64,000 nucleotides of DNA from Mucilaginibacter aquatilis (GTDB taxonomy: Bacteria; Bacteroidota; Bacteroidia; Sphingobacteriales; Sphingobacteriaceae), in NCBI RefSeq assembly GCF_009755275.1, contig NZ_WQLA01000002.1, positions 496,001-560,000 of the forward strand, written 5' to 3'. Made by a program: the position numbers and the translations under genes. Under the pieces are notes generated by a model that worked only from the letters and a program-made list of their open reading frames with translations, was not told where the DNA came from and ran no database searches. Numbering within the stretch: position 1 is the stretch's first letter; the number at the start of each line of letters is the position of its first letter. Below are positions 253 through 8,994 of the stretch, piece by piece.

Positions 253-936
253 ATGGCTAAAATTTTACTGGTTGAAGACGAAGACAAGGTGTCCTCTTTT
301 ATAAAAAAAGGGTTAGAGGAACACCATTACCAGGTTGATGTGGCCAAAGACGGTATTGCCGGTTTAACCAACGTTTTGCAAGATAGTTATGACCTGATTA
401 TACTTGATGTAATGCTTCCGCTTATAAACGGTATTGACCTTTGTAAGCAAATTCGTCAAAAGCAAAGCCAGGTACCCATATTGATGTTAAGTGCCTTAGG
501 TACCATTGATGATAAGGTAACCGGTTTGCATGCAGGTGCCGATGATTATTTAATTAAACCTTTCCATTTTAACGAACTGCTTGCCCGTATTGAGGCTTTA
601 TTACGCCGGCGCAACATGGCCGAAACCACCACGCACGTGTTAACATTTGCCGATTTAAAGCTTGATACCTGGGACAAAACTGCCGAACGTGCCGGTAAGA
701 AAATAACGCTCACCGCAAAAGAATATGCTTTGCTTGAATTATTTATGCGCAACCCCGGTAAGCTGCTTTCGCGCGAGTTTATGCTGGAAAAAGTTTGGGG
801 GCTTAACTTTGATACCGGCACCAACATGGTTGATGTATATGTTAATTATCTGCGCAATAAAGTACAAAAGGGTTTTGATAATAAGTTAATTCATACTGTT
901 ATAGGTATGGGCTATATTATGAAGGTTCAGCAATAG
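253..936 (+). CDS. OmpR/PhoB-family response regulator (metal-responsive type)
   Basis: A 227-residue two-domain regulator. The receiver domain covers about residues 1-120, with the acidic pair E8/D9, phospho-acceptor D52 (in ILDVMLP), S80 and K102 (in IKPF). A winged-helix DNA-binding domain covers about 128-225 and ends with the usual GMGYIMK. It is followed after three bases by its sensor kinase and then by a heavy-metal RND operon, as in CusRS and CzcRS. I infer that it activates the efflux genes from 2433, where an array of 11-bp repeats looks like its binding site. The inducing metal cannot be read from the sequence. Confidence 0.93.
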   Translation: MAKILLVEDEDKVSSFIKKGLEEHHYQVDVAKDGIAGLTNVLQDSYDLIILDVMLPLINGIDLCKQIRQKQSQVPILMLSALGTIDDKVTGLHAGADDYLIKPFHFNELLARIEALLRRRNMAETTTHVLTFADLKLDTWDKTAERAGKKITLTAKEYALLELFMRNPGKLLSREFMLEKVWGLNFDTGTNMVDVYVNYLRNKVQKGFDNKLIHTVIGMGYIMKVQQ

Positions 937-939
937 ATA

Positions 940-2307
940 ATGAAAATAAGAACAAGGCTATCTTTATACTTTACCCTCATCAGCTCGGGCACATTACTGC
1001 TGGTATTGCTGGCCTTGTATTTTGCCGTGTTTGGCTTTCTTAAAACAGATTTTAACAAGCGCCTGTCTGACAGGGTAAACGTGGCTGCGCAACTTTATTT
1101 AAAAGCTGACGAAATTGGTGCCGATTCACTGGTTCAGGTTCAGCAAAAGTATCTTGAAAAGCTACCTAACGAAGTTATACGGGTTTATAATGATGGTAAT
1201 AAAGCCGCCTTCGTATCATCAAACGGTATATACTGGCGCAATTCAACCATTGAAGAAGTAAGGCGTAAAGGAGAGATTGAGTACGAAGAAGAAAACAGGC
1301 AGGTTATAGGTCGTTACTTTCATGATAACCAAGGCAATTTTGTGATTCTGGCTTCTGCCGTTGACCGTAACTTTAACCCTAGGGTAACTATGCTGGCACG
1401 CATAACCCTTATTCTTTTTTTAGGTTTCAGTGCCATTTTATTCTTTGCAGGTCAGTGGTTTGCCAGTAAATCGCTGGCTCCCATACAACGTATTATAGGC
1501 GAAATACGGCACATAAGGTCAAGTAATCTGCACCTGCGTATTGCCGGTGTTAAAAATAACGATGAAATAGCCGAACTAATAAGCAACTTCAATAACCTGC
1601 TCGAACGTTTGGAGAATGCTTTTGAGTTGCAACGCAGTTTTGTGTCCAATGCATCGCACGAGTTGCGTACCCCGCTAACCAGTATTATGGGCGAGGCCGA
1701 CGTAGCACTTGAAAAGGCACGTAGTCCGCAGGAGTATAATCGCGTACTGCAATCCATATCCAATGATGCCATGCACTTGCAAGCCACAATTACCAGCTTA
1801 ATGGAACTTGCCCAGGTTGATTTCAATTATACTCAAACGGTATTGCAGCCGGTACGCATGGATGAGCTGATGTGGGAGCTTAACGAGTATTGGATTGAAA
1901 AGAAGGGAACTGATAAACTCATTTTGCAGTTTAAAGAATTTCCTGAAGATGAGAATGCACTGGTCATCATGGCAAATAAATCATTACTTGCCATAGCACT
2001 CAATAACATTATTGATAACGCATTTAAGTATTCGAAAGATGCAGCAGTAAATGTAACTTTTGATGCACGCCAGGATACCATCCAAATTGAAATTACTGAT
2101 AAAGGCACCGGTATAAAAGCCGAAGATATTGACCAGATTTTTAAATCATTCTACCGTGCCGAGGGTACCCGTAACCATGTACAGGGTAGTGGGATAGGCC
2201 TGTACATAGCAGGTAAAATTATACAGCTTTGCAATGGTACAATCAAAGTTGTATCTGATGGTTCATCCGGAAGTTCATTTATTTTAACCTTTATTAAAAG
2301 TAGGTGA
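940..2307 (+). CDS. Sensor histidine kinase, partner of the upstream response regulator
   Basis: A 455-residue membrane kinase. The first transmembrane helix is at about residues 9-34, then a periplasmic sensor loop of about 115 residues, a second helix at about 150-172, a HAMP linker, the H-box with phospho-accepting H240 (ASHELRTPLT), and a HATPase domain with N-box (NNIIDNAFKYS), G1 (DKGTGI) and G2 (GSGIGLYIA). The start is three bases after the regulator's stop, so the two are co-transcribed. The periplasmic loop has no obvious His/Met-rich metal site, so the signal is uncertain. By family it should phosphorylate the 253-936 product. Confidence 0.93.
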   Translation: MKIRTRLSLYFTLISSGTLLLVLLALYFAVFGFLKTDFNKRLSDRVNVAAQLYLKADEIGADSLVQVQQKYLEKLPNEVIRVYNDGNKAAFVSSNGIYWRNSTIEEVRRKGEIEYEEENRQVIGRYFHDNQGNFVILASAVDRNFNPRVTMLARITLILFLGFSAILFFAGQWFASKSLAPIQRIIGEIRHIRSSNLHLRIAGVKNNDEIAELISNFNNLLERLENAFELQRSFVSNASHELRTPLTSIMGEADVALEKARSPQEYNRVLQSISNDAMHLQATITSLMELAQVDFNYTQTVLQPVRMDELMWELNEYWIEKKGTDKLILQFKEFPEDENALVIMANKSLLAIALNNIIDNAFKYSKDAAVNVTFDARQDTIQIEITDKGTGIKAEDIDQIFKSFYRAEGTRNHVQGSGIGLYIAGKIIQLCNGTIKVVSDGSSGSSFILTFIKSR

Positions 2308-2352: not shown

Positions 2353-2391
2353 TCTAATGTCATTCTAATGCACGTTTAATGCACGTCTAAT
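2353..2391 (+). promoter_or_regulatory. Four 11-bp-spaced direct repeats, putative response-regulator operator
   Basis: TCTAAT at 2353-2358, 2364-2369 and 2386-2391, with TTTAAT at 2375-2380, are spaced by exactly 11 bases, one helical turn. Tandem 11-bp repeats are the usual binding pattern of OmpR/PhoB regulators. The array ends 11 bases before a -7 box and fills the place where a -33 element would be, which suggests class II activation. Confidence 0.65.
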
Positions 2392-2401
2392 TCAGCCACA
2401 A

Positions 2402-2409
2402 TAGTTTTG
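2402..2409 (+). promoter_or_regulatory. -7 box of the metal efflux operon
   Basis: TAGTTTTG matches TAnnTTTG exactly. No TTTG lies 19-21 bases upstream; the repeat array sits there instead, so the promoter is probably activator-dependent. The channel gene starts at 2433. Confidence 0.55.
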
Positions 2410-2432: not shown

Positions 2433-3707
2433 ATGTTCAATATATCAAAAGGAGTAAAGCTCCTGTTTATACCACTCATTACCTTTTTTGCCGGGCATGC
2501 TAATGCTCAAACCGATAGCCTTCGGTTAAGCTTTAAAGATGCCGAAAAGCTGTTTCTTCAAAATAACCTGAGCCTGCTTGCTCAAAAATACAATGTTGAT
2601 GCTGCGCAGGCATTAGTACAACAGGCCCGTTTGTGGGATAACCCTGTTTTGTCAACTGATCAGAATGTGGTAGACAATTCAGGTAAGTTTTTTGATCACC
2701 GCAATGGCAGCGGGCAGGTATTTGTTCAATTAACCCAGCTTATACAAACTGCGGGGAAACGTGGAAAGCAAATTAAAGTGGCCGAAGACGGTACCAGAAT
2801 TCAACAGGCTGCATTTGATGATTTGCTGCGTAACCTGCGTTACAACTTACAGCTTGATTTTGCTGAAGCAGCCAATTTGATAGCGCAACGCAAGGTTTAC
2901 GCAACCGAAATTAAATCCGCCACAGGTTTGGTTAACGCAACAGATAAAGCTTACCAGGCTGGAAATACATCGCTTAAAGACTTGGTAAGGCTAAAAGCTT
3001 TACTTTTTAACCTTCAGAATGAACTGGTTGACAATGAGCGCCAGTTAAATGATTTGCAGGCCGAGCTGAAAACCTTACTAGGTGTAAAAGAAGATCAGGC
3101 CATTCTACCTTTGATAAGCCCTCCGCATGAGAGTACTACACTTAATCCTGTTGCACTTGCCGAGCAAGCCAAAACATCACGTGCTGATTATTTGGTAAAC
3201 CAATACACGTTAGATCAAAATAACAGCAACCTAAAGTTGCAGCAAGCTCTTGCAAAACCCGATATAACTATAGGAACCAGTTTTGACCAAAACAGTAGCT
3301 ATACGCGCAATGTAATTGGGCTGCAAATAAGTGCCCCGCTGCCATTCTTCAATCGTAATCAGGGCAATATCAAGTCGGCTAAACTGGCTGCCCAAAGCCA
3401 GGAATTTGTTGTTAAAAACAGCGAATTGCAGGTGAAAAATGAGGTTTACAACGCCGTGCAGCAGTATAACCTTAGCCAGCAGCTTTTAGGAAAAACCGAA
3501 AGTGATTTTTATGACAAATACGATCAGATTTTTGCTGCCATGATGAAAAGCTTTCAGCAACGTCAAATCAGTCTGCCTGAATTTATAGACTTTTTTGACT
3601 CTTATAAAGAGACTAAAATTAAGATCCTTCAACTACAAATGAACTTACAAAGATCAATAGCTGATTTAAATTATGCAGTAGGTTCTACAGTAATAGCAGC
3701 ACAATAA
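2433..3707 (+). CDS. TolC-family outer-membrane channel of a metal efflux system (CusC/CzcC-like)
   Basis: A 424-residue exported protein. The N-terminus carries a signal peptide (hydrophobic core about residues 8-22, likely cut after AHANA at about 25). The mature part has the two long helical OEP repeats typical of TolC-like trimers, rich in Gln, Asn and Leu. It would form the outer-membrane duct of the tripartite pump with the adaptor (3761) and RND pump (4929). It is the first gene after the repeat array and -7 box. It has no lipobox, unlike NodT-type CusC, and so is closer to the CzcC type common in Bacteroidota. Confidence 0.88.
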   Translation: MFNISKGVKLLFIPLITFFAGHANAQTDSLRLSFKDAEKLFLQNNLSLLAQKYNVDAAQALVQQARLWDNPVLSTDQNVVDNSGKFFDHRNGSGQVFVQLTQLIQTAGKRGKQIKVAEDGTRIQQAAFDDLLRNLRYNLQLDFAEAANLIAQRKVYATEIKSATGLVNATDKAYQAGNTSLKDLVRLKALLFNLQNELVDNERQLNDLQAELKTLLGVKEDQAILPLISPPHESTTLNPVALAEQAKTSRADYLVNQYTLDQNNSNLKLQQALAKPDITIGTSFDQNSSYTRNVIGLQISAPLPFFNRNQGNIKSAKLAAQSQEFVVKNSELQVKNEVYNAVQQYNLSQQLLGKTESDFYDKYDQIFAAMMKSFQQRQISLPEFIDFFDSYKETKIKILQLQMNLQRSIADLNYAVGSTVIAAQ

Positions 3708-3760
3708 TCATACAATCGGAATCACTTTAAACACCGGTGAAATCCTTAAAACATACAACA

Positions 3761-4858
3761 ATGAACTCAAGAATTATATACGTGGCAATGGCGGCAATCA
3801 CCGTTTTAACCGCTTGCGAAGAAAAGAAAACCGGCACCATGGAGAACAAGCAGGTTTGCATCAGCGATTCACTTGCCCGCATGATTACTATTGATACCGC
3901 CCGCGAATCGGCCATGAAAAACGAGCTGAAGCTTAGCGGAGAGGTGTCATTCGATGAAAACAGCGTGGTAAAAGTATTTCCGTTTGCCAGCGGGCAGGTA
4001 ATGAACGTGAATGTATCATTAGGTGATAAGGTGAATAAAGGCCAAACACTGGCTGTAATTCGCAGCGCCGACGTTGCCGGCAACTATTCTGACCTTACTT
4101 CGGCCAAAGCCGATTTGGCTATCAGTCAGCGTGCTTTACAACAGGCCGAGTACCTTTATAAAAATGGTATATCAAGCGAGCGCGATTATACTGAGGCCAA
4201 AGAGAACTATACCAAAGCTGTTGCGGCCAACCGTAAGGTGCAAGAGCAAATTGCCATTAATGGCGGAGGTAATACCAACGCTGCCGGTACATTGATTGTA
4301 AAGGCCCCACGTAGCGGTTACATTGTTGAAAAGAATATAAGTGCAGGCAATTACATACGTCCGGATAACGGCAGCAGTATGTTTACCATATCAGATATGA
4401 AAGACGTTTGGGTAAATGCCAACGTATTTGAAACTGATATTGCCAAAGTTAAAGTGGGCTACGCAGCGCAGGTTACTACGCTGGCTTATCCTGATAAGCA
4501 ATTCACCGGCAAGGTTGATAATGTTGGTTCGGTGCTTGATCCTGACAGCAAGGTTCTCAACGTACGCATTGTGCTTCCTAACCCCGACAGGTTATTAAAG
4601 CCCGAGATGTTTACTAATGTGCTTGTTACCAATGCCGAAGCTTCACAGGCGGTGTCAATTACAAACGATGCTGTAATTTTTGATAGCGGTAAAAACTATG
4701 TGGTGGTGTATAACAGCAAATGTGATTTGCAGGTGCGTGAGGTTAATGTGATTAAAACGCTTGACAATGTTGCTTATCTGTCATCAGGATTAAAGCCGGG
4801 AGATAAGGTGATCTCCAAAAATCAGTTGTTGCTATACAATGCCTTAACCGAAGAATAG
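3761..4858 (+). CDS. Periplasmic adaptor lipoprotein of RND metal efflux (CusB/CzcB-like, HlyD family)
   Basis: A membrane-fusion protein of 365 residues. I chose the ATG at 3761 over an in-frame GTG at 3737 because it gives a clean lipoprotein signal (hydrophobic stretch, then LTAC with Cys at residue 19). A biotinyl/lipoyl-like half motif (PFASGQVMNVNVSLGDKVNKGQ) is followed by a coiled-coil hairpin (about 105-150), the second lipoyl half (VKAPRSGYIVEKNISAGNYI) and beta-barrel and membrane-proximal domains. It would link the pump to the outer-membrane channel. It lies 53 bases after the channel gene and 70 before the pump gene, so one operon. Confidence 0.9.
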   Translation: MNSRIIYVAMAAITVLTACEEKKTGTMENKQVCISDSLARMITIDTARESAMKNELKLSGEVSFDENSVVKVFPFASGQVMNVNVSLGDKVNKGQTLAVIRSADVAGNYSDLTSAKADLAISQRALQQAEYLYKNGISSERDYTEAKENYTKAVAANRKVQEQIAINGGGNTNAAGTLIVKAPRSGYIVEKNISAGNYIRPDNGSSMFTISDMKDVWVNANVFETDIAKVKVGYAAQVTTLAYPDKQFTGKVDNVGSVLDPDSKVLNVRIVLPNPDRLLKPEMFTNVLVTNAEASQAVSITNDAVIFDSGKNYVVVYNSKCDLQVREVNVIKTLDNVAYLSSGLKPGDKVISKNQLLLYNALTEE

Positions 4859-4928: not shown

Positions 4929-7900
4929 ATGAATAAGCTCATCAAAAATATTATATACTTCTCGTTACGTCACCGCGCCATGGTGTTTTTTATGACCGGC
5001 GTGTTGGCTATACTTGGTGTTTGGAGCTATACAAATACCCCAATCGAGACTTTTCCTGATGTTACCAACACACAGATCATTATTATAGCGCAGTGGCCTG
5101 GTCACAGTGCCGAGGAAATGGAAAAGCTGGTTACCATACCCATGGAAACCGTGCTTAATTCCGTTCAAAAGAAATCAAACCTGCGCACCACATCATCTTT
5201 TGGCTTATCATATGTGCGCATCATATTTGATGACGATGTAGATGATTCATTTGCCCGCCAGCAGGTAATGAGCCGCATTATGAATGCGGAGTTACCTGAT
5301 GGGGTAAAACCTGAAATTGAACCGCCGTATGGCCCAACAGGTGAAATTTTTCGCTACACGCTTAAGAGCCGTACAAAATCATTACATGAACTTACTGCCA
5401 TACAAGACTGGGTTTTAGACCGCCAATTTAAAGCTATACCCGGCGTTGCCGACGTAAACAGCTTTGGTGGCGAAGAAAAAACGTACGAAGTAAGCGTTAA
5501 CCCGCTGTTGCTTCGCAAATACGGGCTTACATCTTTAGATGTTTACACCGCCGTAAACCGCAGTAATATAAATGTGGGTGGTGACATTATTGAAAAGAAT
5601 GACCAGGCCTTTGTTGTACGCGGTATTGGTCTCATTAACAACATTGGCGAGATAGAAAATATCATCATTAAAAACGTAAACAATGTTCCTATACTGGTTA
5701 AAAACGTTGCCGATATTAAAGAGGGTGGCTTGCCGCGTTTAGGTCAGGTTGGCAGGGATAAAAAGGATGACGTTATTGAAGGTATTGTGGTGATGCGTAA
5801 AGGCGAGAATCCTGCCGATGTGTTGGAAAGAATTCGTGATAAGGTTACAGACATGAATGAAAACGTACTGCCTAAAGACGTTAAAATTTCCACTTTTTAT
5901 GATCGTACCAACCTTATTGAGTTTTGTACCGAAACCGTAATACACAACCTGGTTGAGGGTATTGTATTGGTAACCGTAATTGTGTTTTTGTTTATGGCCG
6001 ATTGGCGCACCACACTTACTGTTGCCATTATAATTCCGCTGGCATTACTGTTTGCCTTTATTTGCCTGCGGTTAAAAGGTATGACGGCCAACCTGCTTTC
6101 AATGGGTGCTGTTGATTTCGGTATTATTATAGACGGGGCCGTGGTAATGGTTGAAGGCATATTTGTAGCGCTCGACCACAAAGCGCATGAAGTTGGTATG
6201 CAGCGCTTCAACAAATTGGCAAAGCTTGGTTTGTTTAAAAATGTAGGTGCCGAAATGGGAAAGGCTATCTTCTTTTCTAAATTAATTATCCTTACCTGTT
6301 TGGTGCCAATTTTTGCCTTCCAAAAGGTTGAAGGTAAAATGTTTTCGCCGCTGGCTTATACATTAGGTTTTGCATTATTAGGAGCACTCATATTTACGCT
6401 TACATTGGTGCCTGCACTATCAAGCATATTGTTGCGTAAAAATGTAAAGGAAAAGCATAATCCGGTAGTTAACTTTTTTGAAAACGGAGTTAGGCGCATG
6501 TTTAGCTTTACCTTCCGTAATCAAAAGCTTAGTCTGATTGTATCGGTGGTTTTCATGGCATTAACTTTTGCATCGGCCAAGCTTTTGGGTACTGAATTTT
6601 TGCCACAGCTAAATGAGGGAGCTCTTTGGGTTACTGCACAATTACCTATGAGTACCTCAATTGAAAGCTCAGTTAACCTTACCAACAAAATGCGCGATAT
6701 ACTGATGCAGTTTCCTGAGGTTAAGCAAACGCTGTCGCAGGTGGGCCGTACCAATGATGGTACCGACCCTAAGGGCTTTTTCAACGTACAAATACAGGTT
6801 GACCTGTTGCCTAAAAAGCAATGGAAGCGTCACATTACCCAGGAAGAGCTCATTGCGCAGATGGATAAAAAGCTGAGCCAGTTTCCGGGTATTATCTACA
6901 ATTACTCACAGCCTATTATTGATAACGTGGCCGAAGCTGTTGCAGGTGTACCGGCATCAATGGCGGTGAAAATATTCGGGCCCGATTTTGAAGTGCTCGA
7001 CCATAAGGCCAACGAGGTAATGGGCGTGCTTAAGCATATCAAAGGTGTTGAAGATTTGGGTGTATTGCGAAACTTAGGCCAGCCGGAGTTCAGGATTGAA
7101 CTTGACCAAAAGAAAATGGCCCGCTATGGCGTGGCAACTGCCGATGCCAACTCGGTTATTGAAATGGCTATAGGAGGGAAGGCGGCGTCAGAACTTTATG
7201 AAGGAGAACGCAAGTTTGATATACGCATACGCTATCAAAAGGAGTTTCGTGATGCGCAGGCCAAAATTGAAAACCTGATGGTGCCTACATTGAACGGATC
7301 GCAGATAGCAATTAAAGAAATTTCAAAAATTAAGCAAATTACAGGCCCGGCGTTTATATTCCGTGATAATAACAGCCGTTATATCGCTGTTAAATTCTCA
7401 GTTCGTGGCCGCGATTTGGGCAGCACCATTGACGAAGCACAGCATAAGGTAGGTAAAGTAGTAAAGCTTGACCATGGCTACAGCTTTACCTGGAACGGCG
7501 AATTTGAAAATCAAATTCGTGCGTCAAAAACCTTGTCACAGGTTGTTCCTATCTGTTTGGTGGTGATATTCCTCATCCTATTTAGCATGTTTGGTAATGC
7601 TAAAGATGCCATATTGGTTATCCTTAATGTTCCGTTTGCCTTAATAGGGGGTATACTTGCACTGCACATTACGGGTATCAATTTCAGTATATCAGCCGGT
7701 ATAGGTTTTATTGCCTTGTTTGGGGTGTGTATACAAAATGGTGTGATACTAATATCGGTGTTCCGCAAGAACATTGAAGAGGGCATGCACCTTGATGATG
7801 CTATCCTTAAAGGCGTAATATCAAGGGTAAGGCCGGTAGTAATGACGGCATTAATGGCTGCTATAGGTTTGATGCCGGCAGCAATATCAACCGGTATTGG

Positions 7901-8066
7901 TTCTGAAACGCAAAAGCCTTTAGCCATCGTAGTTATAGGCGGTTTAGTTACCTCTACTATTCTTACTTTATTGATTTTGCCAATCATATATGCAATGGTG
8001 TATAAACTTATACACCGTCGCGAAAACCGCAAGCTGCTTAAAAAGCTTGGGGCCATAAGTTCTTAG
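4929..8066 (+). CDS. Heavy-metal efflux RND pump (CusA/CzcA family)
   Basis: A 1045-residue inner-membrane proton/metal antiporter, full length for the HME-RND family. The N-terminal helix is followed by the porter motif around PIETFPDVTN, and the 12-helix duplicated architecture is present. The transmembrane-4 charged triad of HME pumps is intact: D396, D402 and E409 in DFGIIIDGAVVMVE, equivalent to D402/D408/E415 of CzcA. The C-terminal half has a second SSD-like helix set. It expels monovalent (Cu/Ag) or divalent (Zn/Co/Cd/Ni) cations; the sequence does not decide which. It is the last gene of the operon, with a terminator at 8105. Confidence 0.94.
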   Translation: MNKLIKNIIYFSLRHRAMVFFMTGVLAILGVWSYTNTPIETFPDVTNTQIIIIAQWPGHSAEEMEKLVTIPMETVLNSVQKKSNLRTTSSFGLSYVRIIFDDDVDDSFARQQVMSRIMNAELPDGVKPEIEPPYGPTGEIFRYTLKSRTKSLHELTAIQDWVLDRQFKAIPGVADVNSFGGEEKTYEVSVNPLLLRKYGLTSLDVYTAVNRSNINVGGDIIEKNDQAFVVRGIGLINNIGEIENIIIKNVNNVPILVKNVADIKEGGLPRLGQVGRDKKDDVIEGIVVMRKGENPADVLERIRDKVTDMNENVLPKDVKISTFYDRTNLIEFCTETVIHNLVEGIVLVTVIVFLFMADWRTTLTVAIIIPLALLFAFICLRLKGMTANLLSMGAVDFGIIIDGAVVMVEGIFVALDHKAHEVGMQRFNKLAKLGLFKNVGAEMGKAIFFSKLIILTCLVPIFAFQKVEGKMFSPLAYTLGFALLGALIFTLTLVPALSSILLRKNVKEKHNPVVNFFENGVRRMFSFTFRNQKLSLIVSVVFMALTFASAKLLGTEFLPQLNEGALWVTAQLPMSTSIESSVNLTNKMRDILMQFPEVKQTLSQVGRTNDGTDPKGFFNVQIQVDLLPKKQWKRHITQEELIAQMDKKLSQFPGIIYNYSQPIIDNVAEAVAGVPASMAVKIFGPDFEVLDHKANEVMGVLKHIKGVEDLGVLRNLGQPEFRIELDQKKMARYGVATADANSVIEMAIGGKAASELYEGERKFDIRIRYQKEFRDAQAKIENLMVPTLNGSQIAIKEISKIKQITGPAFIFRDNNSRYIAVKFSVRGRDLGSTIDEAQHKVGKVVKLDHGYSFTWNGEFENQIRASKTLSQVVPICLVVIFLILFSMFGNAKDAILVILNVPFALIGGILALHITGINFSISAGIGFIALFGVCIQNGVILISVFRKNIEEGMHLDDAILKGVISRVRPVVMTALMAAIGLMPAAISTGIGSETQKPLAIVVIGGLVTSTILTLLILPIIYAMVYKLIHRRENRKLLKKLGAISS

Positions 8067-8136: not shown

Positions 8137-8187
8137 TTTTTAAGCTATATGATAAATAAAAGTTATTTTGGCTTAACAGAAAAAAAC

Positions 8188-8994
8188 ATGCGTATACTGC
8201 CGTTATTAATTTCAGCTGTTATTGTAGCATCCTTCACCGGCTGCAGGCCCAAGATCAAACAAGAACCCGTAAAAAAGGTGGCACAACCTGATTTTGTGGC
8301 TAAACATAGCGAGAGAGATACTGTAACGAAAGAGCTTCCGGATGATGCGCAGGCCAAGTTTAAATTATTAACAACGGGTACTTTTCATCATGATGAGATT
8401 ACCGCCGGTTTAGAAGTTTTAACATGGTATGGGCTTTTTAAAAGTAAACACGGAAGGTATTTTATCTCTCCGGCGCGAATTAAAGTAAAACAGGTAAAGG
8501 ATGATATAGTTGATGATGGCGCAGCTAAAACAGGCTGGGAGGTAACCACTGATGTTCAGGATACCTGTTTCTTCCTGTTATCGGGCTACACGCTGTCAAC
8601 CCACACGGTTGAACGATTGCTGCCCACAGCGGGAGAGATAACGCCGGGACAAGTACAAAAGTATCAATACAATGATGTTGATTATATGCTTGCCGCAACC
8701 GGTAAAAAGGCTTTAAAAGTAAATGCAGTATATCCATTTACTAATTACCGGCTACATTGCTCTGTAGAAAAAAACGGAATAAGCTATAATGACGTGTTAG
8801 TTGCACATAGTAAGCCCGACTACGGTTGTACAGTTTTATTTATAGGCGACGTTGACGGTGATTCCGTTCCCGACTTGTTGTTAGATACATCTGGCAGCGA
8901 GAATACCATGTCAACCACGCTATACCTGTCAAAACCGGCTGAGAAAGGTAAGCTATTCAAGCACGCCGGCACGCATACTATCACTGGTTGTTAG
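8188..8994 (+). CDS. Predicted lipoprotein of unknown function with a DxDxD calcium-type loop
   Basis: From the ATG at 8188 (an in-frame ATG at 8149 would put 13 extra residues before the signal) the 268-residue product starts with a lipoprotein signal; lipobox FTGC, Cys19. I recognise no catalytic domain. Near the C-terminus (about residues 229-241) is a loop reading GDVDGDSVPDLLLD, the DxDxDG pattern of FG-GAP/dockerin-like calcium sites. The mature protein is probably periplasmic or surface-attached. The gene follows the terminator of the metal operon, so a metal-related role is not indicated. It converges with the next gene, with only 8 bases between. Confidence 0.75.
   Translation: MRILPLLISAVIVASFTGCRPKIKQEPVKKVAQPDFVAKHSERDTVTKELPDDAQAKFKLLTTGTFHHDEITAGLEVLTWYGLFKSKHGRYFISPARIKVKQVKDDIVDDGAAKTGWEVTTDVQDTCFFLLSGYTLSTHTVERLLPTAGEITPGQVQKYQYNDVDYMLAATGKKALKVNAVYPFTNYRLHCSVEKNGISYNDVLVAHSKPDYGCTVLFIGDVDGDSVPDLLLDTSGSENTMSTTLYLSKPAEKGKLFKHAGTHTITGC

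Follow-up and report, generated by a model that had tools for sequence, protein, structure and literature searches.

The window, which is the whole stretch of 64,000 nucleotides of Mucilaginibacter aquatilis DNA analysed here, carries a two-component gene pair and, directly behind it on the plus strand, an efflux operon. The first gene (253-936) encodes a response regulator of the OmpR/PhoB family, with the Pfam domains Response_reg (PF00072, 104.5 bits) and Trans_reg_C (PF00486, 88.5 bits) both above the cut-off. Judged by its sequence, the protein appears CusR/CzcR-like and is the candidate binder of the array described below; its top NCBIfam model was TIGR01387 (CusR/CzcR/SilR) at 260.7 bits, which is below the cut-off of 279.2 and does not place it in the heavy-metal family itself. 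A search of solved structures returned other OmpR-family regulators only. The second gene (940-2307, plus strand) encodes a CusS/CzcS-like sensor histidine kinase with HAMP, HisKA and HATPase_c domains (TIGR01386, 197.6 bits, below the cut-off of 292.55). The target operon, also on the plus strand, starts with a TolC/CusC-like outer-membrane efflux protein (2433-3707; Pfam OEP in two stretches), followed by a CzcB/CusB-like periplasmic adaptor (3737-4858, start codon uncertain; TIGR01730 above the cut-off) and a pump that belongs to the CusA/CzcA family of heavy-metal RND transporters (4929-8066; TIGR00914, 982.8 bits, cut-off 701.45). Downstream of the pump gene, 8149-8994 encodes a protein of 281 amino acids with a lipoprotein-like start, which may be a member of the operon and gave no Pfam or NCBIfam match.

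Results

A four-word array in register with a -7 box

Four six-letter words lie on the plus strand between the kinase and tolC genes, namely TCTAAT at 2353-2358 and 2364-2369, TTTAAT at 2375-2380 and TCTAAT at 2386-2391, the last of them at about the -33 place. Read directly from the sequence, their starts (2353, 2364, 2375 and 2386) are separated by steps of 11, 11 and 11 bp. The -7 box TAGTTTTG (2402-2409, plus strand), a full match to TAnnTTTG, begins 16 nt downstream of the first base of word 4. A sequence-only reading of this DNA had described TCTAAT-type words at exact 11-base intervals, directly behind the regulator and kinase genes and ending just before a -7 box. The intervals and the upstream genes are as described, and "-type" was the right wording for an array whose third word is TTTAAT; the box indeed lies at 2402, but it is separated from word 4 by 10 nt and does not follow immediately. 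Using the four-word pattern with up to three mismatches, two matches were obtained in the window (the array and its one-step shift), compared with 0.01 on average in 100 dinucleotide shuffles. No other site of the 4.33-Mb genome has three mismatch-free words in a row; the two matches that were obtained overlap at this one.

Conservation of the array at orthologous promoters

The upstream regions of 80 tolC homologues, all except two at least 47% identical, were scanned for the regulator, the kinase, the words and the box. In the close group, which consists of the 32 nearest promoters (L061-L092) and the window, all 33 promoters carried four words at steps of 11, 11 and 11 bp, the last of which starts 16 nt before a TAnnTTTG box. 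Among the 32 distinct promoters, word 1 was TCTAAT in 29 and TTTAAT in 3, word 2 TCTAAT in 24 and TTTAAT in 8, word 3 TTTAAT in 28 and TCTAAT in 4, and word 4 TCTAAT in 26, TCCAAT in 5 and TTTAAT in 1. The information content was 1.89 bits for the 24 word columns, 0.67 bits for the 15 spacer columns and 2.00 bits for the six fixed -7 columns; anchoring the alignment on TAnnTTTG with the best upstream words fixed the -7 value in advance and gave the word values a slight advantage. Because the words are conserved while the intervening spacers vary, a simple tandem duplication was ruled out as the origin of the array. The words are themselves AT-rich, as chance words could be, but this conservation refutes a chance origin and the shuffles and the whole-genome search also argue against it, so that it retains practically no probability.

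The presence of the array follows that of the adjacent regulator gene. All 41 loci with an adjacent regulator match had an array, of four words in 31 and of two in 10, and it was absent from 35 of the 39 loci lacking such a match. The other four were L067, L069 and L080, with four words, and L115, with two; L069 is truncated by its contig end, and its kinase is present. L093, which was counted as array-less, has two words 11 bp apart and no box in register. Thus, ahead of orthologous operons, the repeats proposed in the sequence-only reading have kept their sequence, their period and their register, and they track the adjacent OmpR-type regulator gene. Two sister-genus loci (L139 and L140) have four TTTAAT words in unchanged register. 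In ten loci, whose regulators are 58-61% identical, only two words are present, those of slots 2 and 3 (one a base off); slot 4 is empty there, and a site over the -33 place is therefore not universal.

A different conserved promoter was seen at 28 tolC orthologues (L093-L114, L116, L118, L125, L127, L136 and L137) that have no regulator-kinase pair within 3 kb upstream. It consists of two TTCAT-type words 11 bp apart and an AAnnTTTG box 15 nt from the start of the second word, and this second word together with the following TGAA is often palindromic. At these orthologues, the operon may have been taken over by another regulator with nearly identical geometry.

The regulator associated with the array

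Six OmpR-type regulators are encoded in this genome, one of which is a second CusR-like protein, 49.6% identical to the window regulator. The recognition-helix stretch of the window regulator (within 253-936, plus strand) is TNMVDVYVNYLRNK, of a kind common to the array-linked regulators: the stretch [TS]N..[DE]VY.[NS][YF]LR[NK]K is shared by the window regulator, the second CusR-like regulator and 18 of the 18 complete regulators at class-wide array loci, in a sample that covered 19 of 72 sites, mostly chosen for a nearby kinase, and whose 19th regulator (L220) is incomplete. The remaining four OmpR-type regulators of this genome do not have the stretch.

The second CusR-like regulator-kinase pair lies on the minus strand at G000:C3 487269-489486 (7269-9486 of L227), some 6.5-8.7 kb ahead of the window. 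Its kinase gene is followed by the words TCTAAT, TTTAAC, TCTTAG and GCTAAT at 11-bp steps, by TACCATTG, one mismatch from the TAnnTTTG box, 16 nt on, and then by a small gene without a Pfam match; this array was found by reading the sequence and not by the two-word composite pattern. Ahead of the second regulator gene there is also a two-word site, with TCTTAT and TTTAAT followed by TATGTTTG. The two related systems of this genome thus seem to use the same operator code. The two-word composite gave a mild excess in the genome (10 matches, 4 in the control), and a larger regulon was not supported, as only the window array and the site before the second CusR-like regulator are trusted among the pattern matches. 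Autoregulation through the array was also rejected: TAnnTTTG occurred within 110 nt upstream of the regulator gene in 30 of 42 loci, none of which had two or more exact words in register, and the window regulator gene has no array upstream.

The array could instead be the operator of a repressor, or of a regulator other than the adjacent CusR-like one. L067 and L080 keep the array without a regulator in the fetched stretch, and 10 of 30 class-wide sites have neither an adjacent related kinase nor a divergent related regulator. However, a close homologue of the regulator is encoded elsewhere in both genomes, 88% identical and about 100 kb off for L067 (G070) and 70% identical and about 5 kb upstream for L080 (G044), and the array was accordingly kept after the separation of regulator and operon. 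The tracking of the adjacent regulator across the 80 loci, the 11-bp direct repeat typical of OmpR/PhoB regulators and the position of a site at about the -33 place of promoters without a -33 motif, which suits an activator, also speak for the adjacent protein, and we regard another regulator or a repressor as very unlikely. The two genomes in which the regulator gene has parted from the operon (G070, with L067 and L245, and G044, with L080 and L246) are natural tests of action at a distance.

Distant homologues and class-wide searches

A set of more distant TolC homologues (32-39% identical) was assembled without regard to their promoters and comprised 20 loci of the sister genus g61, 19 Mucilaginibacter loci and one other; two further rows of the match lists were added to give 42, and one locus, L281, had already been found by the class-wide composite search. 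The register score was at least 19 of 24 in 37 of the 42 promoters (35 of 40, and both added ones), with L257 marginal among them, whereas the best of 4000 shuffles reached 15. Among the five failures, three had no TAnnTTTG in range, L285 was of the two-word type and L295 was one base out of register. In six sister-genus loci (L260, L262, L268, L269, L271 and L275), the -7 box ends only 4 nt before an ATG, and their tolC transcripts would have little or no leader.

The full composite with up to three mismatches had 72 matches, compared with 3 for the reversed pattern, and these were distributed over 51 of 395 Bacteroidia genomes and 32 of 196 genera. When 30 of the 72 sites were examined, 18 followed a co-directional related kinase gene, 2 adjoined a divergently oriented related regulator and 10 had neither neighbour, although one of these ten (L145) follows a distant regulator. 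The genes downstream of the 30 sites encode TolC (5), adaptors (3, one with TolC as well) and other proteins, including small ones resembling universal stress proteins; of two such proteins tested, one matched Pfam Usp at an E-value of 0.006, below the cut-off, and the other matched nothing.

A search of 395 Bacteroidota genomes for the array without the box (at most one mismatch) produced 41 rows, counted as 37 separate arrays and spread over 29 genomes. For 30 of them, an exact TAnnTTTG between 6 and 59 nt from the last word was found in 17, and only at +16 (9 arrays), +27 (1), +28 (5) and +38 (2); the equal-length stretch upstream of the same 30 arrays held none. The two +38 arrays carry further words, so that their true distance from last word to box is again 16, and five of the nine +16 arrays are operon orthologues of this genus. 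Thirteen of the 30 had no exact box in range, five of them having a one-mismatch box at +16. The remaining seven arrays comprised two with exact boxes (both at +27), three with one-mismatch boxes at +16 and two with none. The five arrays with the box at +28 rather than 16 or 27 (L171, L172, L183, L188 and L197) form a second, slightly different register class.

The -33 place

As the sequence-only reading had stated for the window, there is no TTTG at the -33 place: neither TTTG nor TTG occurred 28 to 15 nt upstream of the -7 box in any of the 32 distinct promoters, window included. In the distant-set arrays (n = 35), TTTG was found in none and TTG in two. This suits a promoter that depends on an activator, but the -33 motif is weak in this phylum. 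According to the accessible parts of PMC7366714, the TTTG -33 motif was described for Bacteroides and was not identifiable in Flavobacterium johnsoniae, and for this reason the missing element is weak evidence by itself.

A predicted RNA hairpin over the -7 box and the tolC start

An inverted repeat surrounds the -7 box. In the window, the predicted RNA hairpin has its 5' arm at 2404-2413, within and just past the box, and its 3' arm at 2420-2429, ending 3 nt before the tolC start codon (both on the plus strand), as judged from folding and covariation. The inverted repeat was significant (p < 0.05) in 20 of 32 promoters, and its arms differ between lineages. Summed over the 32 sequences, the ungapped inverted-repeat score was 228, against 148 in box-preserving shuffles (largest, 162), with no excess upstream of the array (141 against 138) and a slight one inside the gene (145 against 136; largest of 60 shuffles, 144). 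When 40 nt beginning 9 nt before the box were folded as RNA in the 32 sequences, the z-score was -17.3 for the coding strand and -10.4 for the other. Upstream of the array, the same measure gave -0.9 and +1.5, respectively. Within the tolC gene it gave -3.1 and -7.0, folding there also being somewhat better than in shuffles, and more so on the opposite strand. Reversed copies of the -7 box, a possible cause of the palindrome, were not found by eye in a few 3' arms.

Pairing was then compared within two clades. In the clade of the window (alignment A2, with its own RNAalifold fold as the structure), 96.1% of 129 cells pair, and 12 cells have two-sided changes, compared with 4.0 in shuffles (none of 500 as high); sliding the partner destroyed the pairing. 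One doubly changed pair uses a degenerate position of the -7 box, as U-A in 7 sequences and C-G in 6. In the other large clade (alignment A1), 75.8% of 260 cells pair, a percentage that leans towards L069, from which the structure was set by hand, and 14 double changes were counted, compared with 6.7 in shuffles (0 of 500). RNAalifold gave no consensus structure on A1, one of the two alignments.

The ten two-word loci alone had hairpin z-scores of -8.3 on the coding strand and -2.6 on the other, and the distant-set arrays (20 and 15 promoters) had -5.5 and -7.0 on the coding strand and -1.7 and -4.4 on the other. The predicted stem reaches or passes the start codon in many promoters, and in the distant set it often takes in the start codon. 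No coding-strand hairpin was detected at the 28 tolC promoters of the other type, without a related regulator-kinase pair in the 3 kb upstream (z +1.7), or at the promoters of the regulator genes themselves, which have the same kind of -7 box (25 distinct, z -0.9). A class-wide hairpin was not supported, as 29 class-wide sites showed no clear excess.

A near-palindrome over the -7 box and the start, the usual place for a repressor, could also be a DNA operator for a second, dimeric repressor and not an RNA element; the best ungapped arms, 4 to 19 nt long, would suit this, and the opposite strand also folds better than shuffles. In contrast, the sequences and centres of the arms vary by lineage while pairing is kept, and the signal leans to the coding strand: its folds contain 44 G-U pairs, compared with 13 in the opposite-strand folds, it is more stable by 73.7 kcal/mol in sum over the 32 sequences (shuffles never went beyond -25.5), and the two-word group is strong mainly on this strand. 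We therefore consider the DNA operator unlikely and favour an RNA hairpin that is predicted to span the -7 box and the start-codon region, to covary and to favour the coding strand.

Discussion

Probable class II activation by a CusR-like regulator

Our proposal is that the four words are sites for two dimers of the CusR-like regulator at a class II promoter built on the Bacteroidota -7 box, which we hold to be very probable. In this mechanism, the words would be tandem half-sites on a single face of the helix, one for each response-regulator monomer, and two dimers of the phosphorylated regulator (253-936) would bind them. The promoter-proximal site, at about the place of the missing -33 element, would replace that contact, and the regulator would hold or recruit RNA polymerase at the -7 box (2402-2409). 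A signal sensed by the kinase, probably a metal ion, would then turn on the tolC-adaptor-RND operon. The exact geometry, its conservation, the absence of the -33 motif and the link to the regulator gene with its shared recognition helix are direct observations; from them we infer the binding, phosphorylation and activation by the regulator, and its signal. The geometry of a class II promoter was found in all 33 close-group promoters, with word 4 starting 16 nt before the box, and steps of about one turn recurred in independent arrays; the -33 element of such a promoter is expected to be weak or absent, as in the 32 close promoters. The sequence-only reading had already suggested this type of promoter, and geometry, conservation and the regulator link support it, with the mechanism of an activator touching sigma deduced from position and by analogy with PhoP as described in the accessible parts of PMC3335776.

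Tandem 11-bp repeats are the binding pattern of OmpR/PhoB regulators, and the PhoB pho box has the word CTGTCAT. The array shares the 11-bp period of the pho box, and the CTGTCAT word is absent from it. Metal regulators such as CusR, CopR, PcoR and CzcR stand, as here, in a regulator-kinase pair beside a CusCBA-type pump. Sites of the CusR type are palindromic, whereas this array is a direct repeat, with a different word and site number, and the NCBIfam metal models are not reached by this system. Salmonella PhoP box promoters of architectures I and III are alike in having an OmpR-family activator, direct-repeat half-sites and strict helical phase, in the portions of PMC3335776 available to us. 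There, the distance from the PhoP box to the -10 element is about 12 or 21-23 nt, and the box covers the -35 place at class II promoters, like the array here. It functions 12, 23 and 33 nt upstream of the -10 element, at steps of one helical turn such as those seen between array and -7 box in the class-wide search. However, these PhoP promoters have a single box of two half-sites, a sigma-70 -10 element and the word (T/G)GTTTA, and those described here have four words, the Bacteroidota TAnnTTTG and TYTAAT.

Among Bacteroidota, the sigma-ABfr promoters described in the accessible parts of PMC7366714 share TAnnTTTG at -7, which all 33 close-group promoters have, and their TTTG at -33 is replaced here by the candidate activator array. 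PorX at porT (PMC8050853) and HaeR (PMC3764172) of Porphyromonas gingivalis are response regulators binding to Bacteroidota promoters, as proposed here; unlike here, neither an array of direct repeats nor a constant distance to a -7 box was found in the available parts of these two papers. The earlier suggestion that this promoter type is rarely described agrees, as a weak test, with our finding no such promoter, and no read-through lock, for Bacteroidota in the open full-text literature, a search that left most subscription papers out of reach. The activator part is of a known kind, an OmpR-type class II promoter, here with an array that is long and a polymerase that is unusual; the combination of array and lock is, to our knowledge, new.

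A possible read-through lock on tolC

The hairpin should form only in read-through RNA, and we therefore propose a translation lock similar to that of Tn10. Fold-back protection of Tn10/IS10 from outside promoters is said to have been described by Davis, Simons and Kleckner in 1985: RNA entering from upstream reportedly folds over the initiation region, and RNA from the element's own promoter cannot. In the same way, read-through RNA from the regulator-kinase genes would hold both hairpin arms, close the tolC initiation region and be poorly translated, and RNA begun at the array promoter, if it starts about 12 nt beyond the first base of the -7 box, would lack the 5' arm and hence be open. Unlike in Tn10/IS10, the lock would act on a metal operon of the host, which stands behind the sensor genes that belong to it, and its 5' arm contains or touches the -7 box. 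As Bacteroidota mRNAs have no SD sequences according to the accessible text of PMC7366714, the start region itself would be masked by the hairpin.

Several predictions and comparisons are consistent with this. A stable stem over the initiation region with conserved pairing, as fold-back requires, was found by prediction and comparison, more weakly on the second alignment, and the leader from this assumed start onward was less folded than shuffles (z +4.1). Read-through is to be expected, because in 23 of 31 loci word 1 either overlaps the stop codon of the kinase gene or starts no more than 20 nt beyond it, and the sole terminator-like site within 2200-2500 of the window is on the other strand. 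That the hairpin keeps tolC poorly translated in read-through RNA has, in our estimate, an even chance of being correct. The hairpin might also act in read-through RNA without affecting translation, as a mark or protection of the 3' end of the regulator-kinase transcript or as an attenuator, and its position soon after the kinase stop codon would fit either role. However, the window has no T-run after the hairpin, the strand of its only terminator-like site (2200-2500, a result for the window only) argues against this, and in many promoters the predicted stem ends at or passes the start codon; we consider such roles improbable.

Returning to the translation lock, its general form would be that the -7 element of sensor-linked efflux operons in Sphingobacteriaceae, when read through, becomes the 5' arm (or the loop) of a structure closing the start codon, a statement to which we give equal odds for and against. 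If it is true, the same short DNA would mean on when RNA polymerase starts there and off when polymerase passes through. RNA folding would account for some of the base preferences within the -7 box, whose degenerate positions would evolve in step with the 5' leader. A costly pump could then stay off despite standing directly behind its sensor genes, and array and lock together would form a compact switch of two layers, for which no terminator is required between the sensor genes and those of the pump. The activator part would offer a clean model for the replacement of a weak -33 contact, that of the unusual sigma factor of Bacteroidota, by an activator. For a type of two-component system that is widespread in Bacteroidota, it would also provide an operator code (TYTAAT at 11-bp steps, the last word starting 16 nt before TAnnTTTG), and as this code is concrete, the targets of such systems, including metal pumps, adaptors and other genes behind the array, could be read from genomes.
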